This document shows positions 16,806 through 31,345 of a stretch of 33,368 nucleotides of DNA, one piece after another. Made by a program: the position numbers and the translations under genes. Source of the DNA: a virus; the IMG/VR virus record IMGVR_UViG_3300006845_000032, positions 1 through 33,368 of that record. One strand, 5' to 3'. Within the stretch, counting starts at the first letter, position 1; each line of letters begins with the position of its first letter. The notes under the pieces were generated by a model. The model had not been told where the DNA came from, ran no database searches, and saw only the letters and a program-made list of their open reading frames with translations.

Positions 16806-19800
16806 TGGGAACTGTGATTTCAGATGTTGTGGATGAAGAACCTAAAAACATCATCCGAGATGTTATAGAAGAACCGCCGGGTAACATAATCACTGACTCG
16901 TTCGAGGATAGTGAGCCTGGTCCTCCTGAAGCCTACAATCCAGTTAGTCGTCCCGGAGATGCAGGAGTCTATGAAGCGAAGGATACGGTAGAACTATTTC
17001 CCCCCGAGCAGCCACCGATGGGACAGCCGCCGGGGATGATGTTGAAAGGACAGGGTTTCCTTCCTGGCAATTACCAGCCGTCCCTTCCGGAGTTAGGTGG
17101 AGTTGCAGAAGCTGGAGCCGCGGCAGTCACTGGCTCGCTAGCTGCGATGGGTGGCGGTCTAGCTGCTATGAGTGCAACAGCTCTTTATAAGGCGTCCAGT
17201 ATTCTTCCCTTCGTAGATTGGGGCGAAAGTTCCGCTGCGGATATATTCATGTCTACATATCGGCTATCCGAGCATTTCACCTATCAACCTAGAACTGCCG
17301 AAGGCGAGAAATATCTCGAAAATACTTTTGGTCAAATAGAGCAGCTCGGTACTATGATGGGACAGGAGGCGACAGACTTTGTTGTCGGCCTAGGAACTGT
17401 AGGTGATATAGATCTTACTCCCGGCGCTCAGGGGTGGAGTAAGCTTACGCCAGAACAGTCGAATATGACGCAAGAAGGGCAAGCTGAGCTTGCAGCAACT
17501 GTGGGAGCTGCGGCTCGGCTATTGCCAGATCTTTCGCTAATGCTTCTGGGTGTGAAAGCAGTGGAGGTTGTTGGAAAGGTTAAATCGGCTAGAATCGAGA
17601 AGGGAGTTAAAGGGAAATTGCGAGAAGCCGGCGTGGAAAGTGTAACCGAAACTCCGGTTGGTGAACTGGCAAAGTTCGAAATGCGCTGGACTAGTCTAAA
17701 AGATTTGCCTGTCACTAAGCCACTGATGAACAAAGCACAAATCAACAAGATGGTGAGGGATATCACCGAGGGAAGTCTAGAACCGGATATAGCAGTCGAA
17801 GTAGGGCCCGGCGGTATTCCGGAACTAGTAACCTCCGGAGAGAGAACTCTCCTAGCTTTTAGAGCTATGGAAGAAAAGGGGATGCCAGTTCCTCAAACTA
17901 TCGCGGTTCGGGCGATGCCTCGTAAGTATACCGAAACCGAGGTGGGGGAGATAAACAGACTGGCAGCCAGCAGAACTGGAAAGTTTCTCCGCGATAAGGT
18001 GGCCGAGAAGGAGGGAGCGGAAGCTCTCGGGAAACAGCTATCTCGAGCTGCTACTGTTGCACTGATTGACCAATCCGGGCCAATTAAGAAAGTTCTGAAT
18101 AAGTTTGGCGCGCTGGGAAAGGTTGCTGTTAGACGATTCAACATCGCTGCTGGATCGACTCCACGCTCGCATATGTATTTCCAGGATGCGAGACGAATGA
18201 TCTTTGACACCAGAAGCGCTGATAATCCGGCACTCAGCTGGCGCAGAGATGTAGAATTTAGGGCTGGCGAAACTGCTGAAGCGGTCAGACTTAGTGAACG
18301 TGATCTCTTTAACATGGTAGTCGAGGATCGACAGTTAACCGACTATCGCTACCGCGGAACGACTAGGAAGAAAGACGTTGATCCAGATATTCAGGCAGCT
18401 CGAGCCCGCCTAGCAAAGGTCGAAGAGGCAGTTGGTCGTCCCCGATTTGCAAACATGCTCGAGCGATCTGACGCTTACTTTGAGTCAGTCAAGCGGTCGA
18501 TGGATCGAGCAGTTAAATATGGGATAATGACTAAAGGTCGAGCCAAGCTTATTACTCGAAGAGAGAAGAGTAAACCCGAAGGAGCTTTCAATCCAGAAGA
18601 TTTTGATGTAGCCTTCGACATTGATGAGACTGGCCTGTATAAACCCGACAAAGGACAAGCTCGAGTTCACGATGTTGAGACCAAACTGGCAGAGATAATC
18701 GTTCGGACAGAAAGCAGAATCGCTCGGAACTATCGTGATAATGCACTGTATGATCTGGCTAACAGTGGGGTAGAGGGGATTGGCAAGCTGGTTAAGGAAG
18801 TCAAGAAGAATGAAGAAGGAAAGTTTCCGCAGGCCCCAGAAGGATATACTGCCATCAAACTTAAGGTGAAGGGCAAGACTAAAGTCCTTCACATGGATAA
18901 AACGATGGCCGAGTATTGGAATGGCCCCGATACCACGCTGACAAATAACTGGATTATGAGCACTACTAGGATGCTCGCTGGCAGCTCATTGGTAAAACCT
19001 CTGGCAACTGGCTACAATCCTGGTTTTGCAATTACGAACATGACTGTCGATCTGGTTCATGCATGGCGCACTAGCGAGGTTGGATTTAGCAGCTGGGGGC
19101 CTGTCTATCTGGGTGAGATAATCACCGATTTGGCTGCAACTTTCAAAGATGCTTTCGCCAGGAAAGGAGCCTACCGGCAGTTTGTTGAAGAAGGGGGTGC
19201 AACTGCCTTCTTGACTAGCCAAGGTAAGGGCGTGTTAATGGCAGGTGAGGGCTTATCAGCTCAGATTGCTAGGGAAGTTCGCTCGACTAGAAAACCGTGG
19301 AGACAGAATATAGAGTCCGCTAAGAAGGTGCTTAGCTATGTTAATGAGACGAGCGAAATCTGGGTGAGGCTCGCTATTCGAAATCGTGGACTTAAGAATG
19401 GTATGTCCTCAGAGGAAGCAACCGCAGCTGCTCGAGACTATCTCGATTTCTCTCAAGGTGGAATTGCTACAAAGTATCTGGATAACTGGATTCCCTATCT
19501 GAATGCCAGCACGCAGGGTATGCGTACCGCGTTGAGGGCCTACAAGAACAATCCAAAATCCACCGCTATTAAAGACATGCAGCTGATTGGTCCATATCTA
19601 GCTTGGCAAACCTATCAGTGGTACAAGAATCCTGAATTTATGAACCAGATGACGGCTCAGCAGGATAGAGATTTTGTCAACTTCGAGCTGCCCGGAGCGA
19701 CGTATACCGATCCATCGGGGAACAAACGCCTAGTGTATCTTAAGTTTAAGAAGGATCAATCCATCCTTCCTATGCTTATGATTCCTCAGCTTATGGTGAA

Positions 19801-20827
19801 TAGAGCACTAGGTAATAGGGTTCCGGGGGATAGTGTTCTTAACTATCTGCGAGCTCTTACTCCAATAACTCAGAATCCTTTTCCTCCTACTACTGCTGCT
19901 ATATCTGCGTGGATGTTAAACAAAGATGTATGGAGAGAAGCAGATGCATGGCGAGGAACAGCTGGAAAAGAAACTGGAGTCGGAAAAATCCTTCCTGGAG
20001 CGGAGTTTACTCCAGGAGTTGAACCGCAGGCGCTTGTCGATCTGGGAAAGACTTTTCCTAGCTGGTTCTCACCAGCCCGTGGATATGCAGCTTTGCGGAC
20101 TCTTGCTCCTACTAATAGCTACCTTCAGTTTGGTTGGAATCTTTATAACTATATTGATCACAATCTGAATGGCGATCCAGAAATCAAACGAGAAATAGAT
20201 GATATGCGTGAGCAGAGCTTTCTCGCTTGGCTCTCGCAGAATCCGGCTGGAAATCGTTTCCTAGGATTAACCCACCCAGGGCCGAATACCTATGATCGGA
20301 TGGACGAGGCTTCGATTGAGACGGCAACTCGAGAGAAGCTCTGGGACGATGAGGTTAGAGTAGCTATGAAGAATATGCAGCTAGCTACCTCGGAAACCAA
20401 GAAGAAACAGATAATGGACGATTTGCAAAAGAGTGCAGCTGTTTATGGCCAGCAGACGTTTAGACCCGATCTGCCAGCTAAGATAGTTCTGACGGGTATT
20501 GCCAAAGATGCAGCTCGGCGCGTTCACGCGAGACTGAACGATCCTTATTTGGAAAGCGTAGCTGGACCGCTGTGGTGGTCGGTTTTGTCAGCAACTAGCG
20601 ATCCTGCTATGCGCGCAGATAAATACTTTTGGATCTGGAAAGATGTTGACGCAGATAGGCGCAAGAAGCTGGATAGGATGCTACACGAGGTGGATGCTGC
20701 CGGAGCTATTAGCACAGGTTCTCGAGGCATCTACGATGCAGGATTTGTTCTTAATCTGAATAAACTGAAAAAGCAGTGGGGTACAGATCAAGCGGCAACG
20801 CTCGATCCACCGGATGATGGAGAGTAG
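16805..20827 (+). CDS. Large polyvalent internal virion protein (ParB-like and LPD38-like domains)
   Basis: 1340 aa, by far the longest gene. The N terminus has a short acidic motif repeated three times (VVDEEPKNIIRD, VIEEPPGNIITD, SFEDSEPG), then a Pro-rich linker. Residues about 115-150 are hydrophobic Ala/Gly helices. At about 300-400 a segment (SLKDLPVTKPLMNKAQINKM, then SGERTLLAFRAMEEKGMPVP) has the shape of a ParB-like domain. At about 855-1000 a segment (MSSEEATAAARDYLDFSQGG, WIPYLNASTQGMRTALRAYK) matches the pattern I know for the large polyvalent protein domain LPD38. Such proteins are packed in the capsid and delivered with DNA. No lysozyme or protease motif was recognised. Confident as a virion protein, moderate on domain names. 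Confidence 0.62.
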   Translation: MGTVISDVVDEEPKNIIRDVIEEPPGNIITDSFEDSEPGPPEAYNPVSRPGDAGVYEAKDTVELFPPEQPPMGQPPGMMLKGQGFLPGNYQPSLPELGGVAEAGAAAVTGSLAAMGGGLAAMSATALYKASSILPFVDWGESSAADIFMSTYRLSEHFTYQPRTAEGEKYLENTFGQIEQLGTMMGQEATDFVVGLGTVGDIDLTPGAQGWSKLTPEQSNMTQEGQAELAATVGAAARLLPDLSLMLLGVKAVEVVGKVKSARIEKGVKGKLREAGVESVTETPVGELAKFEMRWTSLKDLPVTKPLMNKAQINKMVRDITEGSLEPDIAVEVGPGGIPELVTSGERTLLAFRAMEEKGMPVPQTIAVRAMPRKYTETEVGEINRLAASRTGKFLRDKVAEKEGAEALGKQLSRAATVALIDQSGPIKKVLNKFGALGKVAVRRFNIAAGSTPRSHMYFQDARRMIFDTRSADNPALSWRRDVEFRAGETAEAVRLSERDLFNMVVEDRQLTDYRYRGTTRKKDVDPDIQAARARLAKVEEAVGRPRFANMLERSDAYFESVKRSMDRAVKYGIMTKGRAKLITRREKSKPEGAFNPEDFDVAFDIDETGLYKPDKGQARVHDVETKLAEIIVRTESRIARNYRDNALYDLANSGVEGIGKLVKEVKKNEEGKFPQAPEGYTAIKLKVKGKTKVLHMDKTMAEYWNGPDTTLTNNWIMSTTRMLAGSSLVKPLATGYNPGFAITNMTVDLVHAWRTSEVGFSSWGPVYLGEIITDLAATFKDAFARKGAYRQFVEEGGATAFLTSQGKGVLMAGEGLSAQIAREVRSTRKPWRQNIESAKKVLSYVNETSEIWVRLAIRNRGLKNGMSSEEATAAARDYLDFSQGGIATKYLDNWIPYLNASTQGMRTALRAYKNNPKSTAIKDMQLIGPYLAWQTYQWYKNPEFMNQMTAQQDRDFVNFELPGATYTDPSGNKRLVYLKFKKDQSILPMLMIPQLMVNRALGNRVPGDSVLNYLRALTPITQNPFPPTTAAISAWMLNKDVWREADAWRGTAGKETGVGKILPGAEFTPGVEPQALVDLGKTFPSWFSPARGYAALRTLAPTNSYLQFGWNLYNYIDHNLNGDPEIKREIDDMREQSFLAWLSQNPAGNRFLGLTHPGPNTYDRMDEASIETATREKLWDDEVRVAMKNMQLATSETKKKQIMDDLQKSAAVYGQQTFRPDLPAKIVLTGIAKDAARRVHARLNDPYLESVAGPLWWSVLSATSDPAMRADKYFWIWKDVDADRRKKLDRMLHEVDAAGAISTGSRGIYDAGFVLNLNKLKKQWGTDQAATLDPPDDGE

Positions 20828-20829
20828 TT

Positions 20830-22767
20830 ATGTTACAGCAAGCAGTTCCGCTAGTTCGTGATACGCCACAAATCCGGTTGTTCGGCAACCTTCAGTGGAC
20901 AAACGTAATCCCGGCTGGATCACAAAGCTTCTCGCCTGAGGAGCAGGCGACTTTAGCCGCCAGCTTTCAAGGGTGGTACCCGACTAACAATCCTAATCCG
21001 AAACCTGTGCCAGCTGAGCTGGATGCGCTACGAGTGCTTAATCCGAATATGCACTTTCATGCGTACCACAATTCTACTGCCACAGCTGCGAATATAGCTA
21101 ATATCCAGGAATGTGAAGGCGATCGTCTGAATATTATCCAGCACTACAAAGAAGGAGTACTGGAAACAGGAATCAACAATTCACCAGCAACTACGACGGT
21201 TCGAGTCACTTCGTTGGGAACCAACGGGATTAAACCATCTGCGGCTGGTTCCGGTGACGTAACAAATAGTCAAGCTGACTATGTCACATGGATAGCTATT
21301 GTGGCACCAGGTCAGCCGCTTTCCAGCGGGGAGGTATGCAAAGTACTTAGTGTCACCGGCACTGCTCCGGTTATTCTAACGGTGGAGCGCGGTCTCGGGG
21401 TGACAAGTCCACAGACTTGGGCGGTCGGTTCGCTGATTTGCTGCCCCATCTATCAGGCTGACAATTGGCCTGGCAGCCCGAATCCGATAGGCTCCTCGCT
21501 AAGATATTCACTAATCCCAGATTCGCCTCAAGTTCTAGCAACTAGCTTCTTCCGTCCTAGATTGGCTAATTTCCTAAATGTCGCCAAAATGGACGGATTC
21601 ATGTTCGATCTGCTAAGCAGCAGTTTCTCTGAAATGCGTAACGCATTTGGGATACAAGTGACTCCGTGGAACTTCAGTGCGAACACATTGCTAACTGAGC
21701 TACAGCGATTGGCTCAGCGTATTACGCAGATGGAAATGATAAAAGCTGCGATGGCAATTGACGCTCCGACAAGACCGTGTCGGATTATGGGCAACAACAT
21801 TAATACGGATTTCGAGACTATCGACGGTGACGGGAGACAGCTATTTACGTCTGGTGCTGTCGAGTTTATGCAATTCGAGGGATTTGCTGCACAGCCGAGT
21901 GGGGGGTTTTTCTCTATTTCGAATTGGCGCAAGAATCTTCGTGATGCAGCGGAGATGATGCAGCAGAACTATGGGACAATAGTATCTTGTAAGCCCAATT
22001 CAACTTATGACCTAGTGCCACAGGAGCGTGACGCCTACAACGCTCGACAGTTCTACGATTATGTGGCAATTGGGCTGATATTCGAGCCAAGTAATCCGAA
22101 GGCTCATGCTAGCTTTAACTTCCTAGTTAATCCCGGCGCAAATCCCTTTGGTCCCGGCAACTGGGTGTTCAACATTCCTGAATGGTGGTACTACGATATT
22201 GGAACGCCGCTTCCGGGGGATCACGCTACTGGAACCGATCATGCAGCTGATAACACAAACGCACTGGACCCTCTAATAGTTGCTGGGACAAACAGCTATG
22301 ACCGTCAGTGGCTGCGAGCGTTCTTTGCTCAGAATCCCACAACTACCCCTGATACTGTTCCAGTTCCTATGCCAGCTGGCCGTCATTGGGCAAGTTTCTC
22401 TGGTGGAGCCGAAGTAACTAGCAAAACACTTCCTGCTAATACAGGGGACGCTTTCTGGTGTTGGGATTTCTCGATTGCTTCTGATGCTCCGGCTGGAACA
22501 AACATCGGAACTGTGGTAGGCACGCATGGGGCAGGAGCCCCATACTCATATGCCATCCAAGGACCTACAGAGTCCTTCACGATTCATTCGGTTTCAGGGA
22601 TTGTGTCCAACCTGGAGGTTATTGAATTTGTGCAACGCGCTCGTTACGTTATTCCCATCCGCATAACGGATAAGGATGGAGTTTCTATTGTGACCGAGCG
22701 CCTGGTTATTACCACTCCGCCAGTTGGTGTCGGAAGCAACCCGCAAACGCGTGTTAGGTATCCGTAA
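20830..22767 (+). CDS. Putative TIM-barrel glycosidase with C-terminal cadherin-like domain
   Basis: 645 aa. Residues about 60-270 have the pattern of hypothetical glycoside hydrolases of the GHL15 type: LRVLNPNMHFHAYHN, then a lineup ending in RLANFLNVAKMDGFMFDLLS, where D and the F-D pair would lie at the barrel's catalytic face; a second barrel half runs to about residue 440. Residues about 550-633 (ASDAPAGTNIGTVVGTHGAG to ITDKDGVSIVTERLVITTPP) read as a cadherin-like beta-sandwich with the DKDG calcium-site motif. I infer a virion enzyme or binding protein acting on host surface polysaccharide, placed last in the structural module. The family is recalled, not searched; a carbohydrate-binding but inactive barrel is the main alternative. 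Confidence 0.55.
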   Translation: MLQQAVPLVRDTPQIRLFGNLQWTNVIPAGSQSFSPEEQATLAASFQGWYPTNNPNPKPVPAELDALRVLNPNMHFHAYHNSTATAANIANIQECEGDRLNIIQHYKEGVLETGINNSPATTTVRVTSLGTNGIKPSAAGSGDVTNSQADYVTWIAIVAPGQPLSSGEVCKVLSVTGTAPVILTVERGLGVTSPQTWAVGSLICCPIYQADNWPGSPNPIGSSLRYSLIPDSPQVLATSFFRPRLANFLNVAKMDGFMFDLLSSSFSEMRNAFGIQVTPWNFSANTLLTELQRLAQRITQMEMIKAAMAIDAPTRPCRIMGNNINTDFETIDGDGRQLFTSGAVEFMQFEGFAAQPSGGFFSISNWRKNLRDAAEMMQQNYGTIVSCKPNSTYDLVPQERDAYNARQFYDYVAIGLIFEPSNPKAHASFNFLVNPGANPFGPGNWVFNIPEWWYYDIGTPLPGDHATGTDHAADNTNALDPLIVAGTNSYDRQWLRAFFAQNPTTTPDTVPVPMPAGRHWASFSGGAEVTSKTLPANTGDAFWCWDFSIASDAPAGTNIGTVVGTHGAGAPYSYAIQGPTESFTIHSVSGIVSNLEVIEFVQRARYVIPIRITDKDGVSIVTERLVITTPPVGVGSNPQTRVRYP

Positions 22768-22913
22768 TGTCCAAGAAAATAACCTGGGGCGGGATTCGAA
22801 AATTCGTCTATAAGGCGATCCACGAAGTTATGAATATGCATCTGGAGTACCCGCCCCCAGCTGGACACGGTATCAATCTGAAAACAGGAAAGCCGAAGAA
22901 GCGCACTAAATAG
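22767..22913 (+). CDS. 48-aa basic protein at the end of the virion module
   Basis: Starts in a TAATG overlap with the upstream stop. Product MSKKITWGGIRKFVYKAIHE, then a Pro-rich joint and a Lys/Arg tail (KTGKPKKRTK). Contains one amphipathic helix; no membrane segment. Not recognised. Its stop TAG (22911-22913) is one end of the 29-bp element that separates it from the convergent helicase gene. Coupling to the upstream gene supports it being real despite its size. Confidence 0.5.
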   Translation: MSKKITWGGIRKFVYKAIHEVMNMHLEYPPPAGHGINLKTGKPKKRTK

Positions 22914-22939
22914 AAATGTTCAAACTCGCAATGTTTCTA
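22911..22939 (-). repeat. 29-bp repeated element, copy 2, between convergent genes
   Basis: Read on the minus strand it begins TAGAAACA, has the core TTGCGAGTTTGAA and ends TTTCTA. Its two ends are the stop codons of the two convergent genes: TAG of the 48-aa plus-strand gene and TAG of the minus-strand helicase gene. The ends pair (TAGAAA/TTTCTA), and on the plus strand a 10-bp stem with two G-U pairs can form around a 9-base loop. There is no other sequence between the two modules. Confidence 0.88.
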
Positions 22940-24136
22940 CGGTCCAGTATACTCGTACACTGCATCACCAGTATGGGGCTGCTCTATCACTCGTATAGCC
23001 CCCATCTTAGCAAGTGTCTCTTGAATCAGGAGCAGGTCGTGATAGTCTACACTGAGATAGAACTCGGCGAGTATCTTCGACCTGCTGACCTGCTTCTTCT
23101 TAACTAGCAATCTAAGAATCTTCTCCGTCACCCCGGCCATCTTATTAGATCCAAAACCACCGAATGCTTTGGGCATCTTCCGTTCGGTTGCTTCCAAAAT
23201 CTTAAGCGCTCGATCTATCGTATCCACTGATATAATAAGGTTATCAGAACGACTAGCAGCCAAGCACATGCATAGCTTACGCAAGTGAGTAGCGCGGCGA
23301 TCACAATAAGCGTAAAAACGGGTGTCTTGGATTGGAAAACGGCCGTTTCGCATCTCTTTATCTTGGACTTCATACCAGCTAATATAGTAGTCCTCAGCGT
23401 CCTCAGCGAACTCATATTCACCAGCCAGAGTGCAAATGCGCTCTAGATCTTCCGTCAAAGCCTTTGACAGAATGATCTCCTTTTGACCATATATTGGCTT
23501 CGCTACAGTCTTTCCCTTCTCTTCTTCAACCACGAATATAATTCGAGAAGTGAAACCGCCTCCGATCGCAGCTTCGGGAAGAATTTCGACCCACCAGTCT
23601 GGTGCAGTCGCTGCAAGAATGTTAAAACACAAGCCCTGGATAGAATCTGTTCCCTGATGCTTTGTTTCATAGGTCCAACTATTCCCACTGTCGTACCAGT
23701 CAGTTAGATCGGCCATAAACTTGGGATTGTTCTTCCCTAGAAACACACTCAACTCCGGACTGACGATCGTCATCGAGCTGTGATACTTTACTATCTTAGT
23801 ATCAGGATCGATGAATGAGTCAGTAGATTGAACCATCTTCCTGATTAGCTGTTCCCGAATGATACACTCGCTCGTGAAGTGAATCGGCATCTTCTCCAGA
23901 ATATCCTTCCCTAATTTCAACGCCGTTCCCTTTCTACACCTTCCAGCAGGACCGACGAGAACGATATACATGTTGGGATAGATGAGTTCCGAGCCCCAGG
24001 CGTGGTATACCCTCCGCTGGAGCGAACTCGCCAGCATAGCTATCCCGATCCATGTGTGATATGAAAGTGGTGGCTCCGTACTCTTCGTGTATTCTATGTA
24101 ACCGCTAAGCCAGTCATTTAGCCTGCGCGTTGCCAT
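22937..24136 (-). CDS. P-loop helicase-like ATPase (DUF3987-like), probable replicative helicase
   Basis: 399 aa, ATG at 24136 with AAGGA eight bases upstream, overlapping the polymerase gene by 23 bases. Residues 62-71 (GPAGRCRKGT) are a Walker A with K69 and T71; residues about 121-134 (SMTIVSPELSVFLG) fit Walker B, with the Glu after S-P; NILAATAPDWW (about 172-182) and GGGFTSR (about 192-198) fit sensor and arginine-finger regions. This order is that of DUF3987-type helicase-like proteins in phage replication modules. No primase or zinc-finger domain is present, so priming must come from elsewhere. Last gene of the minus-strand operon; it ends on the 29-bp element. Helicase activity is inferred from motifs and from its adjacency to polymerase. 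Confidence 0.68.
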   Translation of the reverse strand: MATRRLNDWLSGYIEYTKSTEPPLSYHTWIGIAMLASSLQRRVYHAWGSELIYPNMYIVLVGPAGRCRKGTALKLGKDILEKMPIHFTSECIIREQLIRKMVQSTDSFIDPDTKIVKYHSSMTIVSPELSVFLGKNNPKFMADLTDWYDSGNSWTYETKHQGTDSIQGLCFNILAATAPDWWVEILPEAAIGGGFTSRIIFVVEEEKGKTVAKPIYGQKEIILSKALTEDLERICTLAGEYEFAEDAEDYYISWYEVQDKEMRNGRFPIQDTRFYAYCDRRATHLRKLCMCLAASRSDNLIISVDTIDRALKILEATERKMPKAFGGFGSNKMAGVTEKILRLLVKKKQVSRSKILAEFYLSVDYHDLLLIQETLAKMGAIRVIEQPHTGDAVYEYTGP

Positions 24137-25634
24137 AGAAGGCTTCCTTCATCTCAGATTTCAAAACAGCTAGCTCGGCATCAGCCAGTTTGTCTACATC
24201 CACTTCGGTCATCTGTCCCCAACTAAAACCAATCTTCGTATCGACGGGAATGGTAAAGTCTCGACCGTTCATATGAACTGGGACTAGATGTAAGTCTCGT
24301 CCATACCGCAGACCTTCCATCGACAATCCTTCAACATCCTCCTGCGTGCCAAGCTCGTCATGCACTTGGAACATCAACTCCCAGGTGTCGGTAATATCCG
24401 AACAATCATGGTATACTCTGCGCATTCCCTGATTAAGAACGTCTGCGACCGTACTTTGGGGTGTGAAGGCGTAAGCAGCCTTAAACAGAGGATCTCCCCA
24501 CGGTTGCTTGAAGGTGTAGCTCCTGCCGAACGGGTTAACAAGTGTACGATCACGACCCAGTTGTCGCTTGATTCTCTCGTAATTCTTTCTAATTCCTGGA
24601 TACAGGCTGTGGTAGGACTCAACTGTCCTCTTCGCTTCTTGCTCAGTAACTTCGTTGTCAAGAGCAAACATCTTATACGTTTCATCGTAGTTCAGTCCGT
24701 GGTTGGCCTTCTTCCCTCCTTGTCGCATCGAGCGATTACGAGGTAGCCATTTCGCGTACCGCCCAATATCTGGATGTCTACTCCGAAGCTCTTCAATTTC
24801 TTCCGGATCTGAGGAATGCCCGCATAACTTATGATCCAGACGTATGAGTTCTTCTGGGGCTCCATACATTCCAGCTGCTGTATAAGTGTGTGGATCGCGT
24901 CCCTCCTCAACGACTTTAAGCATATTGTCGTCGCCAGTTTGGTAGGCGACAACGATCCACTCGGCTTGTCGCAAGTCCCGTGCAACAAAGATTTTGCCAT
25001 CGTCAGCCACGACAAATACCCGAAACACTTCGGGTACGTTCTGCATGTTAAGACCAGTCTTAAAAACGGTAGGCGCAGAACTAAATCTTCCGAAGCGGCT
25101 TCCCCTGGGTTTATACTGACAGCGTAGACGACCGTCCTCATCGAACATTACCTCCAAGTAGGTACCCATCAGTTTCTTGCGGGTCCTCCATTCTTGGATT
25201 AACTTCGCCTCATATAACCCTTGACGAGAAGCGCCACCCCTAGCAATCCGAGTCAGCGCTCGATCATCGCAGGTCATCACACTCTCTCCCTTTAGATTCT
25301 TCTTGAAGTAGGGAGGAATGTTCTTCTCGAAGTAGAAGTACTTGATACAATCCTTCGGACTATTCGGATTCAGGTCTCTTCCACAGAGTTCGTGTATACG
25401 CGTTTGCAGGACTTCAATTTCTTTCTCGATTTTAATTTTCGCTGATTTTAGCTTCTCCTTATCAACCCTTACTCCTCGAGTCATCATATACATGAGGGGG
25501 TCATATAGCGACATGGTGAAGTCATAGGTGGCTATCAATCCCTTGGTGACTAGCTCTCCCATGAAGGCATCGTGAGAAACTCGCTGTGCGAGCGCATCCT
25601 TCGCGTTATACTGCAATGTGATTTCGTCTGGCAT
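24114..25634 (-). CDS. Family A DNA polymerase (polymerase domain plus exonuclease motif III)
   Basis: 506 aa. The frame extends to 25661, but ATG at 25634 has AAGGAGGA upstream and shares a base with the previous stop (TAATG). Motif A is around D220 (DLRQAEW), the TxxGRxSSxxPxxQNxP-like region at about 169-201 (FGRFSSAPTVFKTGLNMQNV), the O-helix R304-xxx-K308-xxx-H312 (RQGGKKANHGLNYD), and motif C H425-D426-E427 (QVHDEL). All catalytic carboxylates are present, so it should be active. The residue equivalent to E. coli F762 is His, which is unusual. Residues 9-13 (YNAKD) look like motif III of the 3'-5' exonuclease, whose motifs I and II lie in the upstream gene. No N-terminal 5'-3' exonuclease. 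Confidence 0.93.
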   Translation of the reverse strand: MPDEITLQYNAKDALAQRVSHDAFMGELVTKGLIATYDFTMSLYDPLMYMMTRGVRVDKEKLKSAKIKIEKEIEVLQTRIHELCGRDLNPNSPKDCIKYFYFEKNIPPYFKKNLKGESVMTCDDRALTRIARGGASRQGLYEAKLIQEWRTRKKLMGTYLEVMFDEDGRLRCQYKPRGSRFGRFSSAPTVFKTGLNMQNVPEVFRVFVVADDGKIFVARDLRQAEWIVVAYQTGDDNMLKVVEEGRDPHTYTAAGMYGAPEELIRLDHKLCGHSSDPEEIEELRSRHPDIGRYAKWLPRNRSMRQGGKKANHGLNYDETYKMFALDNEVTEQEAKRTVESYHSLYPGIRKNYERIKRQLGRDRTLVNPFGRSYTFKQPWGDPLFKAAYAFTPQSTVADVLNQGMRRVYHDCSDITDTWELMFQVHDELGTQEDVEGLSMEGLRYGRDLHLVPVHMNGRDFTIPVDTKIGFSWGQMTEVDVDKLADAELAVLKSEMKEAFYGNAQAK

Positions 25635-26617
25635 TACGCGTCCTCCTTCAAGGACTGCCACTTAACCATATCCTTCCAATATGGCATATCCGTATGAATA
25701 CTCCCGATAAAGTTGAGCGACTTTTGAAAGTCGGGATACAACAAACTGTGAGCTACCATAATATCTTCATAGCCCTCAGTCAGAATTCCCAACTCCCGGA
25801 ACAGGAACTGAATATCGAATATTCCATTTTGTAGGATCTTCGTCACCTTCTTATTTCTACACAGCCTGTCCATCGCTCGCCAAAGCATCACTTCTTCCTG
25901 CTCGGTCCAGCGGCTATCAAAGGGAATCGAAATAGTCCTGGGCGGTTCAGCGCAGAGAGCTATACAAGATGTGTGGAAGTTCGATACTTCGATATCGAAG
26001 CCAGTTGGCTTTTCAAGTTTCTCGATGTGGTCTATCAGCGAGAACGCCTGACCGGCAACTTGGGGGATTATTATATCACATTCTTGAAACTGAAACTCGC
26101 GTACTAAGCTGTGTCGTCTTGCCTTCATTAGATCATGCGCGATGTAGTAACGCCAGATCTGATTCATCCAGATAGTCTCTCGTGGATGAAACGTGCCAAG
26201 CACTTTCAGTGTGGGATCGAATCGACAGGGCCAGAGGTAGCCTCTGCGCTTCTGTAGTTGCAGATGGCCGGTCAACCAATAGAATACAAAGTCACCCAAC
26301 GCTACTACAATATTAGGTTGAACTCTGTTTAACAGGTTGACAAAAGCTTCCCGATACTCAAGATCAGCAGTTGCTTTTGGCCTCTTACTGTCGCGGTTCC
26401 AATAAGCGGCGTTGTTAGTCCTATCGAATATCACATTTGCGAATTCGGCTTCGGAACTAACTAGACCACCCATATGTAGACAGGTGGTCATTGCGCTTTT
26501 GGCATGGAGCGAGAACTGCTCCCCCTTCTGGAGAGCAGTCTCGTCCGGATAATCCCCCACTATCAGGATATTAGACCGTTTGGTCTCACGAATTTCCTCT
26601 AGGGGGATAAATGTCAT
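25634..26617 (-). CDS. UDG-like domain fused to N-terminal part of a 3'-5' exonuclease
   Basis: 327 aa. Residues 15-165 read as a uracil-DNA glycosylase superfamily domain: ILIVGDYPDETALQKGEQF, PNIVVALGDFVFYWLTG (101-117) and GTFHPR (141-146). Residues 200-327 are the first part of a DnaQ-like exonuclease: motif I D208-x-E210 (GFDIEV) and motif II around N264-D268 (NGIFDIQFLF). Motif III is missing here and appears at the start of the polymerase gene. In SPO1-like phages a UDG-like domain, exonuclease and polymerase form one polypeptide; here the same series is broken into two genes. The UDG domain may serve in protein contacts rather than uracil removal, since its water-activating motif is not a clear match. 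The start overlaps the upstream stop by four bases (ATGA). Confidence 0.78.
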   Translation of the reverse strand: MTFIPLEEIRETKRSNILIVGDYPDETALQKGEQFSLHAKSAMTTCLHMGGLVSSEAEFANVIFDRTNNAAYWNRDSKRPKATADLEYREAFVNLLNRVQPNIVVALGDFVFYWLTGHLQLQKRRGYLWPCRFDPTLKVLGTFHPRETIWMNQIWRYYIAHDLMKARRHSLVREFQFQECDIIIPQVAGQAFSLIDHIEKLEKPTGFDIEVSNFHTSCIALCAEPPRTISIPFDSRWTEQEEVMLWRAMDRLCRNKKVTKILQNGIFDIQFLFRELGILTEGYEDIMVAHSLLYPDFQKSLNFIGSIHTDMPYWKDMVKWQSLKEDA

Positions 26618-28038
26618 TCGGGCGCTTCCAACTTCTGAAGCATCTTTTCAGCCTCGGCTATAAATCTACGCTTGTATTGGTCAGAAAGGTCCCAACCGAA
26701 GGCAGTAATTCCCTCCTCATAACAGCTCAAGAGAGTTTGGCCACTTCCAAGGAAAGGCACCATTGTAAGTGTTCCGGGCCATGCGAAGGTTTGAAGGATT
26801 TCTCGTACAAGTGTTCCTGGTCGCTGAGTAGGATGATACTTCTCGGACAGGGGCACTGTGTTGAATTCGAAGATGTTTGACCGTCCTCGCTTGCGTAGTG
26901 GCGGAGGATTAGATCCTTTACTAAATACGAAAAAGGGCTCCCAACAGCGTGCCAGGTAATCATCCACTGCATTCGTTTGTCCGGCAGGCTTAGCCCAGAT
27001 GCACGGAATCTTATCAACATCGAAACCGGCTCCTTCTAGCTCGGATAGGATCGTATCGTACCACTCGATCCCGAACCAAAAAATTCCCCGAGTGGATGCG
27101 GGCGTAACTTCATATAGCAACTTGCAGGTTCTTCCGATAAAATCTGGATACTTCTCTCTAGTAATCTCCTGATAATCTTCCATGTTCTTTGTCATCTTCT
27201 TCTGCGCATGTAGGTCGATTGCATAAGGCGGATCGACCTCCAAAAAAGATATCTGCGGTACATACTCTTCGTCAACCATTTCCTGAAGGGCATCCAGAGC
27301 ATCGCCGACACGATAGTGATGGGCTGCATTCTTTAGTGTGATAATAAGCTTCTCTTTGGGGAAATCCCGGCCAATGCGAGCGATAGCTGCTTTATCAGAC
27401 AGAGAATTTTCATATTCCTGATGGGGGATTTCTTCTTCTGGTTCACGAGCTTCGTGGGCTTTTGTCAGCCGTTTGACCTCAGCCGCCTCGGTTAGCTTTC
27501 TAAGGAAACGCACAGCCTCGTCTTCGCTCTTACATTCCTTCAACTTCGGAATAGCATGGAGAGCCTGCGCTAGTTCTAAGCAACGAGAAATGCCGCCTAC
27601 ACTTCGGTTTAGAAGCGAAGCAGTCTTGGATTGTGTCCAGCTTTTACCCCTCGCCTTCTTGCCGTGCTTAGCCAGCTGAAGATTATGCAAATCTTCGATG
27701 CCAAACAGCCGCTCGGTCCACGTCAAGTCTTCGCGGAACAAATTCTCGGTTAATTCGCATTCGCGAAGATCAGCAGCATCTTCTAGCTTTCGCAAGATGG
27801 CTGGCATCTTAAAACTGTCGGGAAGCTCGTGCTTTTCGAGCAGCTCGAGGACGGCCTTCGACCGTCTGCCTCCGGCTATCAGCAGATAGGAGCCATCTCC
27901 GTTCTCCGCTACCGAGATAGGCTGAATAACCCCCTTGTCGAGTATCGACTCCTTTAACTCCGTCATCTCGGTATAGACTTGCCGAATCCGTGTTCCAAAG
28001 TCTATCTTCCTCGGATCGAGATTAACAAATTTAGTCAT
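26614..28038 (-). CDS. ParB-like domain fused to a DNA adenine/cytosine (N6/N4) methyltransferase
   Basis: 474 aa. Residues 1-110 are a ParB/Srx-type domain with GGRRSKA (56-62) and ENLFREDLTW (98-107); a helical region with a helix-turn-helix-like stretch (QSKTASLLNRSVGGISRCLE, about 136-155) follows. Residues 235-474 are an amino-methyltransferase: catalytic DPPY at 269-272, HPTQRP at 402-407, and the AdoMet-binding FLGSGQT at 429-435. The order, catalytic motif before AdoMet motif, is the beta class (N6-adenine or N4-cytosine). No cognate restriction enzyme is nearby, so it is probably an orphan that protects phage DNA or marks sites for replication. ParB-methyltransferase fusions are known in phages and plasmids. 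Target sequence unknown. Confidence 0.87.
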   Translation of the reverse strand: MTKFVNLDPRKIDFGTRIRQVYTEMTELKESILDKGVIQPISVAENGDGSYLLIAGGRRSKAVLELLEKHELPDSFKMPAILRKLEDAADLRECELTENLFREDLTWTERLFGIEDLHNLQLAKHGKKARGKSWTQSKTASLLNRSVGGISRCLELAQALHAIPKLKECKSEDEAVRFLRKLTEAAEVKRLTKAHEAREPEEEIPHQEYENSLSDKAAIARIGRDFPKEKLIITLKNAAHHYRVGDALDALQEMVDEEYVPQISFLEVDPPYAIDLHAQKKMTKNMEDYQEITREKYPDFIGRTCKLLYEVTPASTRGIFWFGIEWYDTILSELEGAGFDVDKIPCIWAKPAGQTNAVDDYLARCWEPFFVFSKGSNPPPLRKRGRSNIFEFNTVPLSEKYHPTQRPGTLVREILQTFAWPGTLTMVPFLGSGQTLLSCYEEGITAFGWDLSDQYKRRFIAEAEKMLQKLEAPE

Positions 28039-28040
28039 AA

Positions 28041-28280
28041 CTATTTCCCTTGAAGTTTGGCAATAAGCACTGCCCTCTGTTCTTCGGTTAGCTTCTTCAT
28101 GATGTTGTCTAATTTCGAACGAGTGGATACACTCTTCTTGGCTTTCTTTATCTGACGCTTCTTCGCCGCGACTGGCCGCTCGATAGTTCTGTGGTTACGA
28201 ATGTCGTGGATTTTAGCCAACTGCTGATCGACAGTCAGCTCGTTGAATGGCGCAAGAAGATCTTTAAGCTTCATAGTCAC
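28041..28280 (-). CDS. Small basic hypothetical protein
   Basis: 79 aa, GTG start at 28280 supported by AGGAG nine bases upstream (an ATG two codons later is less well spaced). Helical and Lys-rich: a short N-terminal helix (LKDLLAPFNELTVDQQLAKI), a basic linker (VAAKKRQIKKAKKSVSTRSK) and a C-terminal helix (LTEEQRAVLIAKLQ). That last helix resembles the end of the protein at 32584-33006. Its start overlaps the HAD gene by 17 bases. Function unknown; could bind DNA. Confidence 0.6.
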   Translation of the reverse strand: MTMKLKDLLAPFNELTVDQQLAKIHDIRNHRTIERPVAAKKRQIKKAKKSVSTRSKLDNIMKKLTEEQRAVLIAKLQGK

Positions 28281-28620
28281 AGCATGGATCTCCTATGCCG
28301 TGGATGACCCTAACTGCGCGATCATCCCATATTGCGACACACCGAAAATCTTTCATGCAGGTGATTGGCAACACCACTCCTATGTGTAACAAGCACCAAG
28401 CTTCGATCAAATCTGTTATTTTTGCAATATCTTCGGGAGAATTATCCAGTGGATTTACACGAGCAGTAAAGATCCTTACCTCTACATCATCCTCCAACCA
28501 CTGTAGTACACGTGCTAACATTGGCTCGATAGGTGGACCTATAACCAGCCGATTGTAGGAACTCCCTCGATACTGAGCCAACGTACCGTCTAAGTCAACT
28601 GCTATCCATCCTTTACTCAT
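28264..28620 (-). CDS. HAD-family phosphatase-like protein
   Basis: 118 aa, ATG overlapping the upstream stop by four bases. HAD motif I is IAVDLDGTLA (residues 6-15; D9 nucleophile, D11 acid/base), motif II is around IFTAR (about 50-54), and motif IV WDDRAVRVI (about 93-101). There is no cap domain, and the length fits small phage HAD proteins such as 5'-nucleotidase or polynucleotide-end phosphatase relatives. Its place in a replication operon suggests a nucleotide or DNA/RNA end substrate, but the substrate cannot be read from sequence. Confidence 0.8.
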   Translation of the reverse strand: MSKGWIAVDLDGTLAQYRGSSYNRLVIGPPIEPMLARVLQWLEDDVEVRIFTARVNPLDNSPEDIAKITDLIEAWCLLHIGVVLPITCMKDFRCVAIWDDRAVRVIHGIGDPCCDYEA

Positions 28621-28850
28621 AGCTGCTTCTCAGAAACTTTCAAACTCGCAAGGTTTCTATTACTTGACTTGATAGATGCTTTGCCATCCAGAATATCTTG
28701 TATAATATAGCTGCCATACTCCTTCACACTGCTTAGAAACATAAGATAAAGCTCACGCGTAACCTGAGCACGCAACCCTCGAGGGAGAGCTATGTTTAGG
28801 CGATCGTGGAGCCCCCTTTCGAGAACTATAGAAGTTTTGATCTCTTCCAC
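28617..28850 (-). CDS. Small protein, possible ribbon-helix-helix regulator
   Basis: 77 aa, GTG start with AGGAG six bases upstream, just after a strong terminator, so it may have its own transcript or depend on readthrough. The segment KTSIVLERGLHDRLNIALPR (residues 4-23), followed by two helices, has the strand-helix-helix shape of small DNA-binding RHH proteins; this is a weak resemblance. The last 20 codons contain copy 3 of the 29-bp element, read through as NRNLASLKVSE, so the C terminus may be derived from the element rather than original coding sequence. Confidence 0.5.
   Translation of the reverse strand: MEEIKTSIVLERGLHDRLNIALPRGLRAQVTRELYLMFLSSVKEYGSYIIQDILDGKASIKSSNRNLASLKVSEKQL
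28631..28659 (-). repeat. 29-bp repeated element, copy 3, inside a coding sequence
   Basis: On the minus strand it begins TAGAAACC, has the core TTGCGAGTTTGAA and ends GTTTCTG. Twenty of its first 21 bases match the other copies. Its ends pair best of the three (AGAAAC/GTTTCT). It lies in the 3' end of the 28617-28850 gene, in a frame where the TAG triplet is not read as a stop. Confidence 0.85.
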
Positions 28851-28861
28851 TGGTAGCTCCT

Positions 28862-28895
28862 AAAAGGAGGCGGCTGACATAAGCCAACCGCCCCC
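28862..28895 (-). terminator. Intrinsic terminator after the ssDNA-binding-like gene
   Basis: On the minus strand, a 13-bp GC-rich stem (28883-28895 with 28866-28878, three G-U pairs) around loop TTAT, followed at once by TTTT. It starts seven bases after the stop of the 28903-29310 gene and ends just before the SD of the next gene. It divides the minus-strand module into a recombination part and a polymerase part. Confidence 0.85.
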
Positions 28896-28902
28896 AACTC
28901 GA

Positions 28903-29310
28903 TTAGTCGGTTTCAGCTACAGCTGGCAAAACCAGTTCGTGCTTTGGCCGACCTTCGTAATCACCCGCCTTGACGTTGCACTCTCCGCGAGAACCAACGA
29001 ACTCTTCGACATTAATCCCGCCATCGACCGTGATGCCGAATACCTGGCAGAAGCTCTTGATATTCCGCAGCTTGAACCTCCGACTCTTGACTTCATCGTC
29101 CGGATGAGGCAGGGCCAAATACTGGAAGATCGGAATGTAGATCTCCTCAGGATCATCGTCGAAACCGATCACCACTTCGATGTTGTTATGCCCTACTTTC
29201 TCCTTCGAAGGCTTTATCTTCGCACCAGTGATTACCAACGGATAGCGAGCCGTCGGCCGAATCTCGGGTTCAGTAACTTCGTCAATACCTGGCAGTTCAA
29301 TAAAACTCAT
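28903..29310 (-). CDS. Probable ssDNA-binding protein (DUF669-like)
   Basis: 135 aa. The frame extends to 29376, but ATG at 29310 has GAGGAG seven bases upstream and sits just after the previous stop. The product (MSFIELPGIDEV, then YPLVITGAKIKPSKEKVGHN, EIYIPIFQYLALPHPDDEVK, NIKSFCQVFGITVDGGINVE, GDYEGRPKHELVLPAVAETD) follows the DUF669-like pattern of small phage OB-fold proteins. These are encoded with Sak4/RecA-like ATPases, as here, and are taken to bind single-stranded DNA. The acidic end (AETD) is reminiscent of SSB tails. Function inferred from pattern and neighbour; a strong terminator follows. Confidence 0.68.
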   Translation of the reverse strand: MSFIELPGIDEVTEPEIRPTARYPLVITGAKIKPSKEKVGHNNIEVVIGFDDDPEEIYIPIFQYLALPHPDDEVKSRRFKLRNIKSFCQVFGITVDGGINVEEFVGSRGECNVKAGDYEGRPKHELVLPAVAETD

Positions 29311-29321
29311 CTTACTTCTCC

Positions 29322-29606
29322 TCAAAAAGGTGTAGACCCGTTCTGTGCGTACATTCGCTTCAAGCAAGCTAACCACCGAGCGTACGCCTTATCCGGCGGT
29401 AGCGTGATAGTCTTCGTGCAAGTTATTGTATCTAAATCCTTCTTCGCCTGATTGTAGTCCTCCCAGTGGATAAGTGGAAACAGATCTGGAAAGTGCTCCT
29501 TCACATACTCATACGTCAGTAGGCCGAAGGGGAGATACCTTAGCGCCTCTGGAATTGGCGGCTCGCTCGCGGGAACGCGCGTCTCTGAGGAGCCTTCCGA
29601 TACCAT
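29322..29606 (-). CDS. Hypothetical protein, uncertain start
   Basis: About 94 aa if it begins at ATG 29606 (SD-like GGAG only two bases away); an ATG at 29648 in the same frame would give 108 aa. Either way the 5' part overlaps the C terminus of the ATPase gene by about 100 to 140 bases; a GTG near 29497 would avoid this but lose a third of the protein. Not recognised. The C-terminal half (YEYVKEHFPDLFPLIHWEDY, NQAKKDLDTITCTKTITL, ARWLACLKRMYAQNGSTPF) looks like a real small helical protein. It lies between the ATPase and the ssDNA-binding candidate. Confidence 0.45.
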   Translation of the reverse strand: MVSEGSSETRVPASEPPIPEALRYLPFGLLTYEYVKEHFPDLFPLIHWEDYNQAKKDLDTITCTKTITLPPDKAYARWLACLKRMYAQNGSTPF

Positions 29607-30375
29607 ACTCCTTCGGATTATTCCAATTAGCGATTGTAACATCTTCATACATTTCGAGCCCCTTCAACGAACATCTAACTGTTGGATTAAATCTATCAGG
29701 ACGAGTCTGCACTACATACTTGTGCTGCTTCGCGTCTGATTGACATTCGCAATAGTAGATATCGCTAAACAAGAGCGGAAGTCTCGTCCTGAGTTTTCCC
29801 GTCAAGATGGGTTGATTCATCACTCTTCCGGTTACATCGTCCTTGACAAAGTCAACATGTCCTGTGCAAAGAATTTGCTTTTTAAGGGATACAAGAGTTC
29901 GAACCACGTTCTTAATAGTGCCCATCTGAGCTCCGTAGTCGTCCTGCTGCGGGACTCTCCCAGGGCGTTTATTAAGGAAGAGAATTCGATCCATGACGAT
30001 ATCACCAAATGTGGTGAAGGAGTCGAATCCGATATTGTCGAAAGGATCGAAGAACCGTTCTTTGACTTTCTTCTCGAAGTCATTCTCCCACTCATCATAT
30101 ACCTCGTGAGCGTTGATAAGATTCAGAGAGGTTAGAGGATCGCCGACACCCTTGGTTAAAGACTGTGCGGCGAGGTTGACCACATCTGGAACAAACTCCC
30201 CATACTCGATATCATATCCTCTGAGCGATGCTAGCGCAGAGGGATCAAATAAGTAGGCGAAGGTATTTCCAGGTAGGGTTAAAAGTTGCGTAGTTTTCCC
30301 AGAACCTGGGTAACCCAACAAAATAGATTTGTTAGGTCCCAGGTTGTCGAGAGTAGCGTCCTTGGCATTAGGCAT
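29509..30375 (-). CDS. Sak4/RecA-like P-loop ATPase, probable ssDNA annealing or recombination protein
   Basis: 288 aa from ATG 30375 (the frame continues to TTG 30390); it overlaps the upstream stop by eight bases. Walker A is GYPGSGKTT (residues 21-29). The middle part (FDPFDNIGFDSFTTFGDIVM) gives a Walker B-like strand ending in acidic-Ser, LKKQILCTGHVDFVKDDVTG is like the sensor/strand region of phage Sak4-type proteins, and DIYYCECQSDAKQHKYVVQT the C-terminal beta hairpin. Phage proteins of this type are RecA-like ATPases that work with an SSB-like partner in strand annealing; the DUF669-like gene is two genes downstream. Role inferred from family and context. Confidence 0.72.
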   Translation of the reverse strand: MPNAKDATLDNLGPNKSILLGYPGSGKTTQLLTLPGNTFAYLFDPSALASLRGYDIEYGEFVPDVVNLAAQSLTKGVGDPLTSLNLINAHEVYDEWENDFEKKVKERFFDPFDNIGFDSFTTFGDIVMDRILFLNKRPGRVPQQDDYGAQMGTIKNVVRTLVSLKKQILCTGHVDFVKDDVTGRVMNQPILTGKLRTRLPLLFSDIYYCECQSDAKQHKYVVQTRPDRFNPTVRCSLKGLEMYEDVTIANWNNPKEYGIGRLLRDARSRERAANSRGAKVSPLRPTDV

Positions 30376-31345
30376 CAGCCTTCTCCACAATCTGTCCGAT
30401 TTTCAAAATCTCGAACGGTTCCCACTTCTCTATCTTAAATCCGTCAGGAACACCAGTGTCATGAACTGGGTCGGCTCTAAATCTGCAGATATCGAAATAG
30501 GGACACCTGCGGCCGAAAGTGAAACAAGATCCAGTGTTTTTTGGGAAGCCCATATAGTTTGGTTGTTCTAGAGCTTCTTCAATTAGGAGGGATTCTTTTT
30601 CTGTTTCTATCCGAGAGATCCAATCCTGCGCCTCCCACAGCCATTGATCGACTAGGGCAAATTGCTTGTGGATTGGAAGTAGCTTGAACTTGCGGACTGT
30701 CTTGTGGATCAACGCTCCGTCGATCGTGACGCCCTCAAATTCATCGCCATAGAGCATGTTACCAGAGTGCATGTAACCGTCGATCTGGGAGTTCAAGTCC
30801 CACTGGTCGATCCAGTCAACTCGGAAGCCCCCTTCCTTTCGATACCACGCCGTAGACTTGTGTTCTATAGCGCGGATACGCTTCCCCTTGGGACGGAACA
30901 CCTTATCTAGACGACCGATATACTGAGGCTCGATCCCCAGTTCTACAACGAAAGGTTGTTCGACGGCTATCAATTCTCCTTCAGCTATCCAAGCTCTTCG
31001 TTCCTCAACATAGGAAATTATCATTTCCGCCGCAATGGCAGGAGTCCGGGGCTCGAATACCGACTCAAGTTCCATCTCGAGAGGGTATGGAGCCCCGTAT
31101 TCTTTCCAACTCCTTACGAACTCCTGAATAGCGGCGCGCTCCAACTGCGCGTCTGTGAGTCCGCTGTTTGCCAATGCCCAGACGACGTTCATAGCATCGT
31201 GCCAAGCTAATCCGAAAAGAAGCTCATGCGCGAGGCCAACGCCTACCAGATGTTGGATATGACGGAAAAAAAATTTCCGAGGACATTCCTTGTACGATGA
31301 CAACATGGTGTTATCGTAGTACGATGCTGCCTCGGTTCTATTCAT
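30368..31345 (-). CDS. PD-(D/E)XK exonuclease, Cas4/RecB-like with 4-Cys Fe-S cluster
   Basis: 325 aa, ATG with AAAGGAG ten bases upstream. Nuclease motifs in order: H49 (LAWHDAM), D147 (IGRLDKVF), E161-x-K163 (AIEHKST) and Q187 (NSQIDGYM). Four cysteines, C21 (SYKECPRKF) near the N terminus and C274, C281, C287 (GSCFTFGRRCPYFDIC) at the C terminus, match the 4Fe-4S staple of Cas4 and AddB-type nucleases. No CRISPR array or cas1/cas2 is present, so this is a phage recombination or DNA-processing exonuclease. It probably resects ends for the neighbouring RecA-like ATPase and ssDNA-binding protein, with which it forms an operon. Confidence 0.83.
   Translation of the reverse strand: MNRTEAASYYDNTMLSSYKECPRKFFFRHIQHLVGVGLAHELLFGLAWHDAMNVVWALANSGLTDAQLERAAIQEFVRSWKEYGAPYPLEMELESVFEPRTPAIAAEMIISYVEERRAWIAEGELIAVEQPFVVELGIEPQYIGRLDKVFRPKGKRIRAIEHKSTAWYRKEGGFRVDWIDQWDLNSQIDGYMHSGNMLYGDEFEGVTIDGALIHKTVRKFKLLPIHKQFALVDQWLWEAQDWISRIETEKESLLIEEALEQPNYMGFPKNTGSCFTFGRRCPYFDICRFRADPVHDTGVPDGFKIEKWEPFEILKIGQIVEKADA

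Follow-up and report, generated by a model that had tools for sequence, protein, structure and literature searches.

A two-gene family-A DNA polymerase in environmental phages, broken between the motifs of its proofreading exonuclease

The replicative DNA polymerase encoded in a 33.4-kb virus record (the window, by which we mean the whole stretch of DNA analysed) is divided over two genes, and the break separates the motifs of its proofreading exonuclease. We put at roughly 80% the probability that the two products are subunits which complete one proofreading site in trans. The two genes, the position of the break, the conservation of the catalytic residues, purifying selection, congruent trees of the two halves, the many relatives and the existence of two split clades were established directly, and from these we infer the assembly and the activity of the pair.

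Gene 1 (25634..26617, minus strand), delimited by ORF calls, Pfam, an AF2 model and fold matches, encodes 327 aa with a UDG-like domain at about residues 12-172 and a part bearing exonuclease motifs I and II at about residues 178-317. Gene 2 (24114..25634, minus strand), assigned from its ORF call and Pfam, encodes 506 aa from its ATG and consists of exonuclease motif III followed by a complete family-A polymerase. In Pfam, protein 1 matched UDG (E = 4e-7) and DNA_pol_A_exo1 (E = 1e-8), the latter profile being covered only to position 121 of 173, while protein 2 matched DNA_pol_A (PF00476, E = 4e-38). Motif I of gene 1 (GFDIEV, aligned with AFDTETD of Klenow) holds D208 (25994..25996, minus strand) and E210 (25988-25990), and motif II (QNGIFDIQF, aligned with QNLKYD) holds D268 (25814..25816, minus strand). 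Motif III, YNAKD, forms residues 9-13 of gene 2 (25596..25610, minus strand), with Y9 and D13 aligned within RYAAEDAD. The D, E and D of the exonuclease and its YxxxD are all present, distributed over both genes, and a profile alignment with Klenow runs across the break and pairs all three exonuclease motifs. This is the layout that the first-pass annotation of the sequence had proposed, and both the ORFs and the Klenow alignment bear it out. In the polymerase, residues D220, K308, Y316, H425 and D426 of gene 2 are all present, in agreement with motifs A, B and C of family A; the alignment of relatives places the catalytic D220 of motif A at 24975..24977 and D426 of motif C at 24357-24359 (both minus strand). 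The locus is neighboured by a ParB-N/DNA-methylase fusion and a DUF3987 protein, and relatives have similar neighbours.

Gene 1 and gene 2 do not form one chain: the two ORFs are read in different frames and a stop separates them. The junction DNA reads TTG AAG GAG GAC GCG TAATG, in which TAATG (25632..25636, minus strand) joins the stop of gene 1 to the start of gene 2 by a one-base overlap. The Shine-Dalgarno (SD) of gene 2, AAGGAGGA, was read from the DNA at 25648-25641 (minus strand), within the last codons (K-E-D) of gene 1, so that the strong SD and TAATG overlap at a separate ATG described in the first pass are indeed there. The frame of gene 2 is also open upstream as far as a GTG at 25661, and the SD belongs to the ATG at 25634. 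At 25637-25648 of the window a conserved K-E/x-D-like tail of the exo half coincides with this SD, and the coding sequence of the tail has possibly been shaped by the ribosome-binding site. Among 27 dereplicated split relatives, 20 have an SD core of at least 4 nt ahead of the next start, and K324 is retained even in relatives with a weak SD.

A sequencing error as the cause of the break is ruled out by a second assembly and by the many relatives with the same break. The second assembly, IMG/VR 3300006844_000122, is identical to the window over 19117-30634 and has the same junction; the concern that resequencing might fuse the frames has not materialized. The cultured Caulobacter phage Kuura is broken at the same place, its halves being separated by two small genes.

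Each of our homology scans of IMG/VR yielded as many as 80 loci, and the counts that follow are among the matches listed. Mechanical classification of all loci gave at least 72 split, at least 45 fused and at least 12 cut by contig ends, where the 72 include the special cases L003 and L052 and the window's own second assembly. One-chain relatives with fused UDG-like, exonuclease and polymerase parts, for which the first-pass annotation had suggested looking, are thus at hand, and beside them the enzyme of the window occupies two adjacent ORFs. In at least about 70 environmental loci and in Kuura the break falls in one and the same loop, where it follows GSIYTxxxxWK and precedes YNxxD. Wherever more than about 570 nt of sequence lies downstream of an exo half, the pol half is adjacent to it. 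Three loci resemble the window in having a gap of -4 or -1 nt between the two halves, and in at least 62 the gap measures 155-1671 nt; the TAATG arrangement of the window recurs in L039 and L055, and the sisters L039 and L131 have gaps of -1 and 155 nt, respectively. Genes within the gap vary by phage and include an HNH_3 endonuclease, a dATP/dGTP pyrophosphohydrolase-like protein, a RecD-like helicase, a nucleoside deoxyribosyltransferase, DUF4406/DUF1937, DUF7768 and DUF6378. The HNH_3 gene of L062 (5034-5543) sits exactly in the gap and its near twin L063 is without it. Given that near twins and sisters differ in gap content, the gap is a place of gene gain and loss. No homing endonuclease, a frequent though not obligatory feature of split phage enzymes, was found at the window's break, with its one-base overlap, and HNH_3 occurs in the gap of one relative, L062. 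We also observed that genes of a nucleotide-metabolism type (dATP/dGTP pyrophosphohydrolase-like, deoxyribosyltransferase, DUF4406) often lie in the gaps of otherwise distant phages (L018, L047, L075, L054 and L058).

Three other loci deserve separate mention. L003 (ctLwi270) was rejected as a case of the same split, its break lying after motif III and its exonuclease being complete in one chain; in this locus (MW202554, 1727-4364) the two ORFs flank an NrdR-like zinc-ribbon reading frame. L052 (5551-8241) has a fused-type polymerase gene with two interruptions, read by eye, one an insert with a homing-endonuclease-like ORF and the other, located in the polymerase domain after NH, an intein-like start (CSVETAQILTPTG). 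L007, in which a pol half follows unrelated sequence, was considered as a loss of the exo half, a claim we dropped because the contig starts there.

A break within the active site and a polymerase domain that is complete by itself are what would be expected if proofreading had been lost, with the polymerase acting alone and gene 1 being a leftover or serving only through its UDG-like domain. Conservation argues against this. When 58 split pairs and 41 fused proteins were aligned together, D208, E210 and D268 of the one protein and Y9 and D13 of the other were invariant in 58/58 split pairs, even though the median identity within each clade of split pairs is about 40%. The D268 motif is part of the patterns used in the first scan, and a YxxxD pattern served to locate the pol half, but the pattern of the second scan contains no catalytic residue at all. 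Three failures of the YxxxD pattern are explained by another break (L003), a motif lying further in (L037) and other insertions (L052). The motif III Y and D are also invariant in A6, and split-only alignments have 19 invariant columns for the exo half and 26 for the pol half, the catalytic residues among them. Fused relatives have the equivalents of D208 and E210 in 41/41, likewise keep the Y and D of motif III, and have E instead of D at D268 in 2/41, and the polymerase residues D220 and D426 are kept in 57/58 and 56/58 split relatives, respectively. From 19-27 marine sequences we estimated dN/dS at 0.13 in the exo half; in the pol half the value was 0.06 over the first 300 residues and 0.12 over the first 30, which make up the motif III segment, so both halves are under purifying selection. 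Conservation of residues speaks for selection and not for chemistry. A dead site would nevertheless have decayed, so the invariant residues and the selection on both sides of the break count against a loss of proofreading, which we regard as improbable.

It is also conceivable that protein 1 is a self-sufficient exonuclease and that the YxxxD of gene 2 is kept for polymerase structure only. The AF2 model of protein 1 (mean pLDDT 88, last 7 residues disordered) has a UDG-like part that best matches UdgX/family-4 UDG (Z 17.7) and a DnaQ-type exonuclease part that folds by itself, with matches extending to residue 294-296 or 327. However, the modelled chain stops before the motif III helix, the Y and D of motif III align with their Klenow counterparts, and both are invariant in pol halves amid variable neighbours. 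In protein 1 we did not find the complete exonuclease fold, with YNAKD lying outside the site, that had been entertained in the first pass, and we think a self-sufficient protein 1 very unlikely. For a one-chain model we used a natural relative, L038, rather than the window's own pair fused (pLDDT 94.6; Klenow match with Z 33.8 over 557 residues). Its motif III residue Y337 lies on a long helix (331-358) directly after the loop where split phages break, and gene 2 therefore carries the helix that finishes the exonuclease site. A single protein might yet be made from both genes by -1 frameshifting, intron splicing or protein trans-splicing, given that the window's frames overlap such that a -1 shift would join gene 1 and gene 2 and that introns and inteins are frequent in phage polymerase genes (PMC10580990, PMC6892783). 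In most relatives, however, the halves lie 155-1671 nt apart with other genes in between, so that frameshifting is excluded as a general mechanism and separate translation is implied. We found no slippery heptamer in the sequence at the window's junction, no match to intron RNA (Rfam), including group I, either in the window or at the breaks of 15 split loci, and no split-intein fragments at the ends of both halves, where gene 1 ends about 12 residues past the conserved WK and gene 2 starts 8 before motif III, leaving no room for one. Frameshift, intron and intein, which the first-pass annotation had thought worth checking in relatives, are thus excluded or strongly disfavoured, and a fused product has in our view very little chance of being correct. 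The split-exonuclease reading of the first-pass annotation is the one we prefer to lost proofreading, in light of the conservation in 58/58 pairs, the purifying selection and a protein 1 fold that is missing only the motif III part.

We propose that the phage replicative polymerase is a two-subunit family-A enzyme in which subunit 1 would supply the UDG-like domain and exonuclease motifs I and II with their three acidic residues, and subunit 2 the motif III helix with its Y and D along with the polymerase. The subunits would be translated separately, in the window with coupling by the TAATG overlap and gene 2's own SD; since genes lie between the halves in many relatives, co-translational assembly cannot be general. 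The N-terminal helix of subunit 2 would then dock onto subunit 1 to give a heterodimer, and docking would complete a single two-metal 3'-5' exonuclease site in trans. Part of the role could, however, have passed to the UDG-like part or to another subunit.

Trees of the exo half and of the pol half agree on two split clades. Clade A contains the window and has as its sister a fused clade with Desulfofustis phage LS06-2018-MD01 among its members; clade B, to which Kuura and marine phages belong, is placed in another part of the tree. A single clade of all split loci was rejected on the combined tree (p-AU 0.01 under LG+G and 0.0004 under a mixture model). In these unrooted trees the same loop was either broken twice, or broken once and later re-fused; two breaks seem likelier because Klenow and many relatives are one chain. 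The two halves have diverged in step, with correlated distances (r 0.84 for clade A and 0.59 for clade B, p 0.0005). The tail shared by exo halves (hydrophobic-K-x-E/D-E/D) was set aside as a sign of single origin, being at least partly the SD of the next gene: AAGGAGGAC encodes K-E-D, and the similarity of the tails may thus be convergent. A further idea, which we offer as speculation and consider doubtful, is that proofreading is a detachable function. The polymerase would copy alone without correction and the UDG-exo subunit would switch proofreading on, with fidelity tuned by dosage; the loop would have been broken at least twice because the break is useful, and dNTP-pool genes would then have settled in the gap.

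The closest known kind is split phage enzymes such as gp43A/B of Aeromonas phages. Aeromonas phages 25 and 44RR likewise make their replicative polymerase from two genes, gp43A and gp43B, sometimes with a homing endonuclease between them, and the split proteins of phage 25 co-purify and have polymerase activity (PMC2988022). Unlike the family-A enzyme of the window, however, these are family B polymerases, and a split of the exonuclease site across whole clades is not reported for them in that work (PMC2988022). In Aeh1 NrdA, split by mobE, the break also falls in a functionally critical region and the polypeptides re-form an active enzyme, but NrdA is a ribonucleotide reductase and its split is tied to a homing endonuclease, which is absent from the window (PMC2988022). 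The OM43 phages MEP401 and MEP402 do encode a family-A polymerase as two ORFs that flank a small one, but their break lies in the polymerase domain, leaving the exonuclease and the N-terminal polymerase part together, and the authors suspect an intron (PMC10580990). The enzymes of Desulfofustis phage LS06-2018-MD01 and SPO1-like phages share domain order and catalytic residues with the window's pair, but they are made as one chain, of 826 aa in L001, or have their interruption at another place, as in Goe26. The Klenow fragment of E. coli Pol I (1d9d, 1kfs) has the same exonuclease and polymerase folds and motifs in a single chain without a UDG-like domain. No description of a split inside a family-A exonuclease site turned up in the literature searched, a weak negative since most subscription papers and all preprints lay outside the search.

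Replicative proofreading sites are normally built in one chain or in one subunit (DnaQ). In the phages described here, which include many environmental ones, each of two proteins holds part of the catalytic residues of one site, with the division at the same loop in two separate clades. The exo half of such enzymes is easily missed, and in the cultured Kuura it is annotated as a hypothetical protein. These phages provide a natural system in which to test how a composite active site is assembled, whether synthesis and fidelity can be uncoupled in phages, and why this break recurs.
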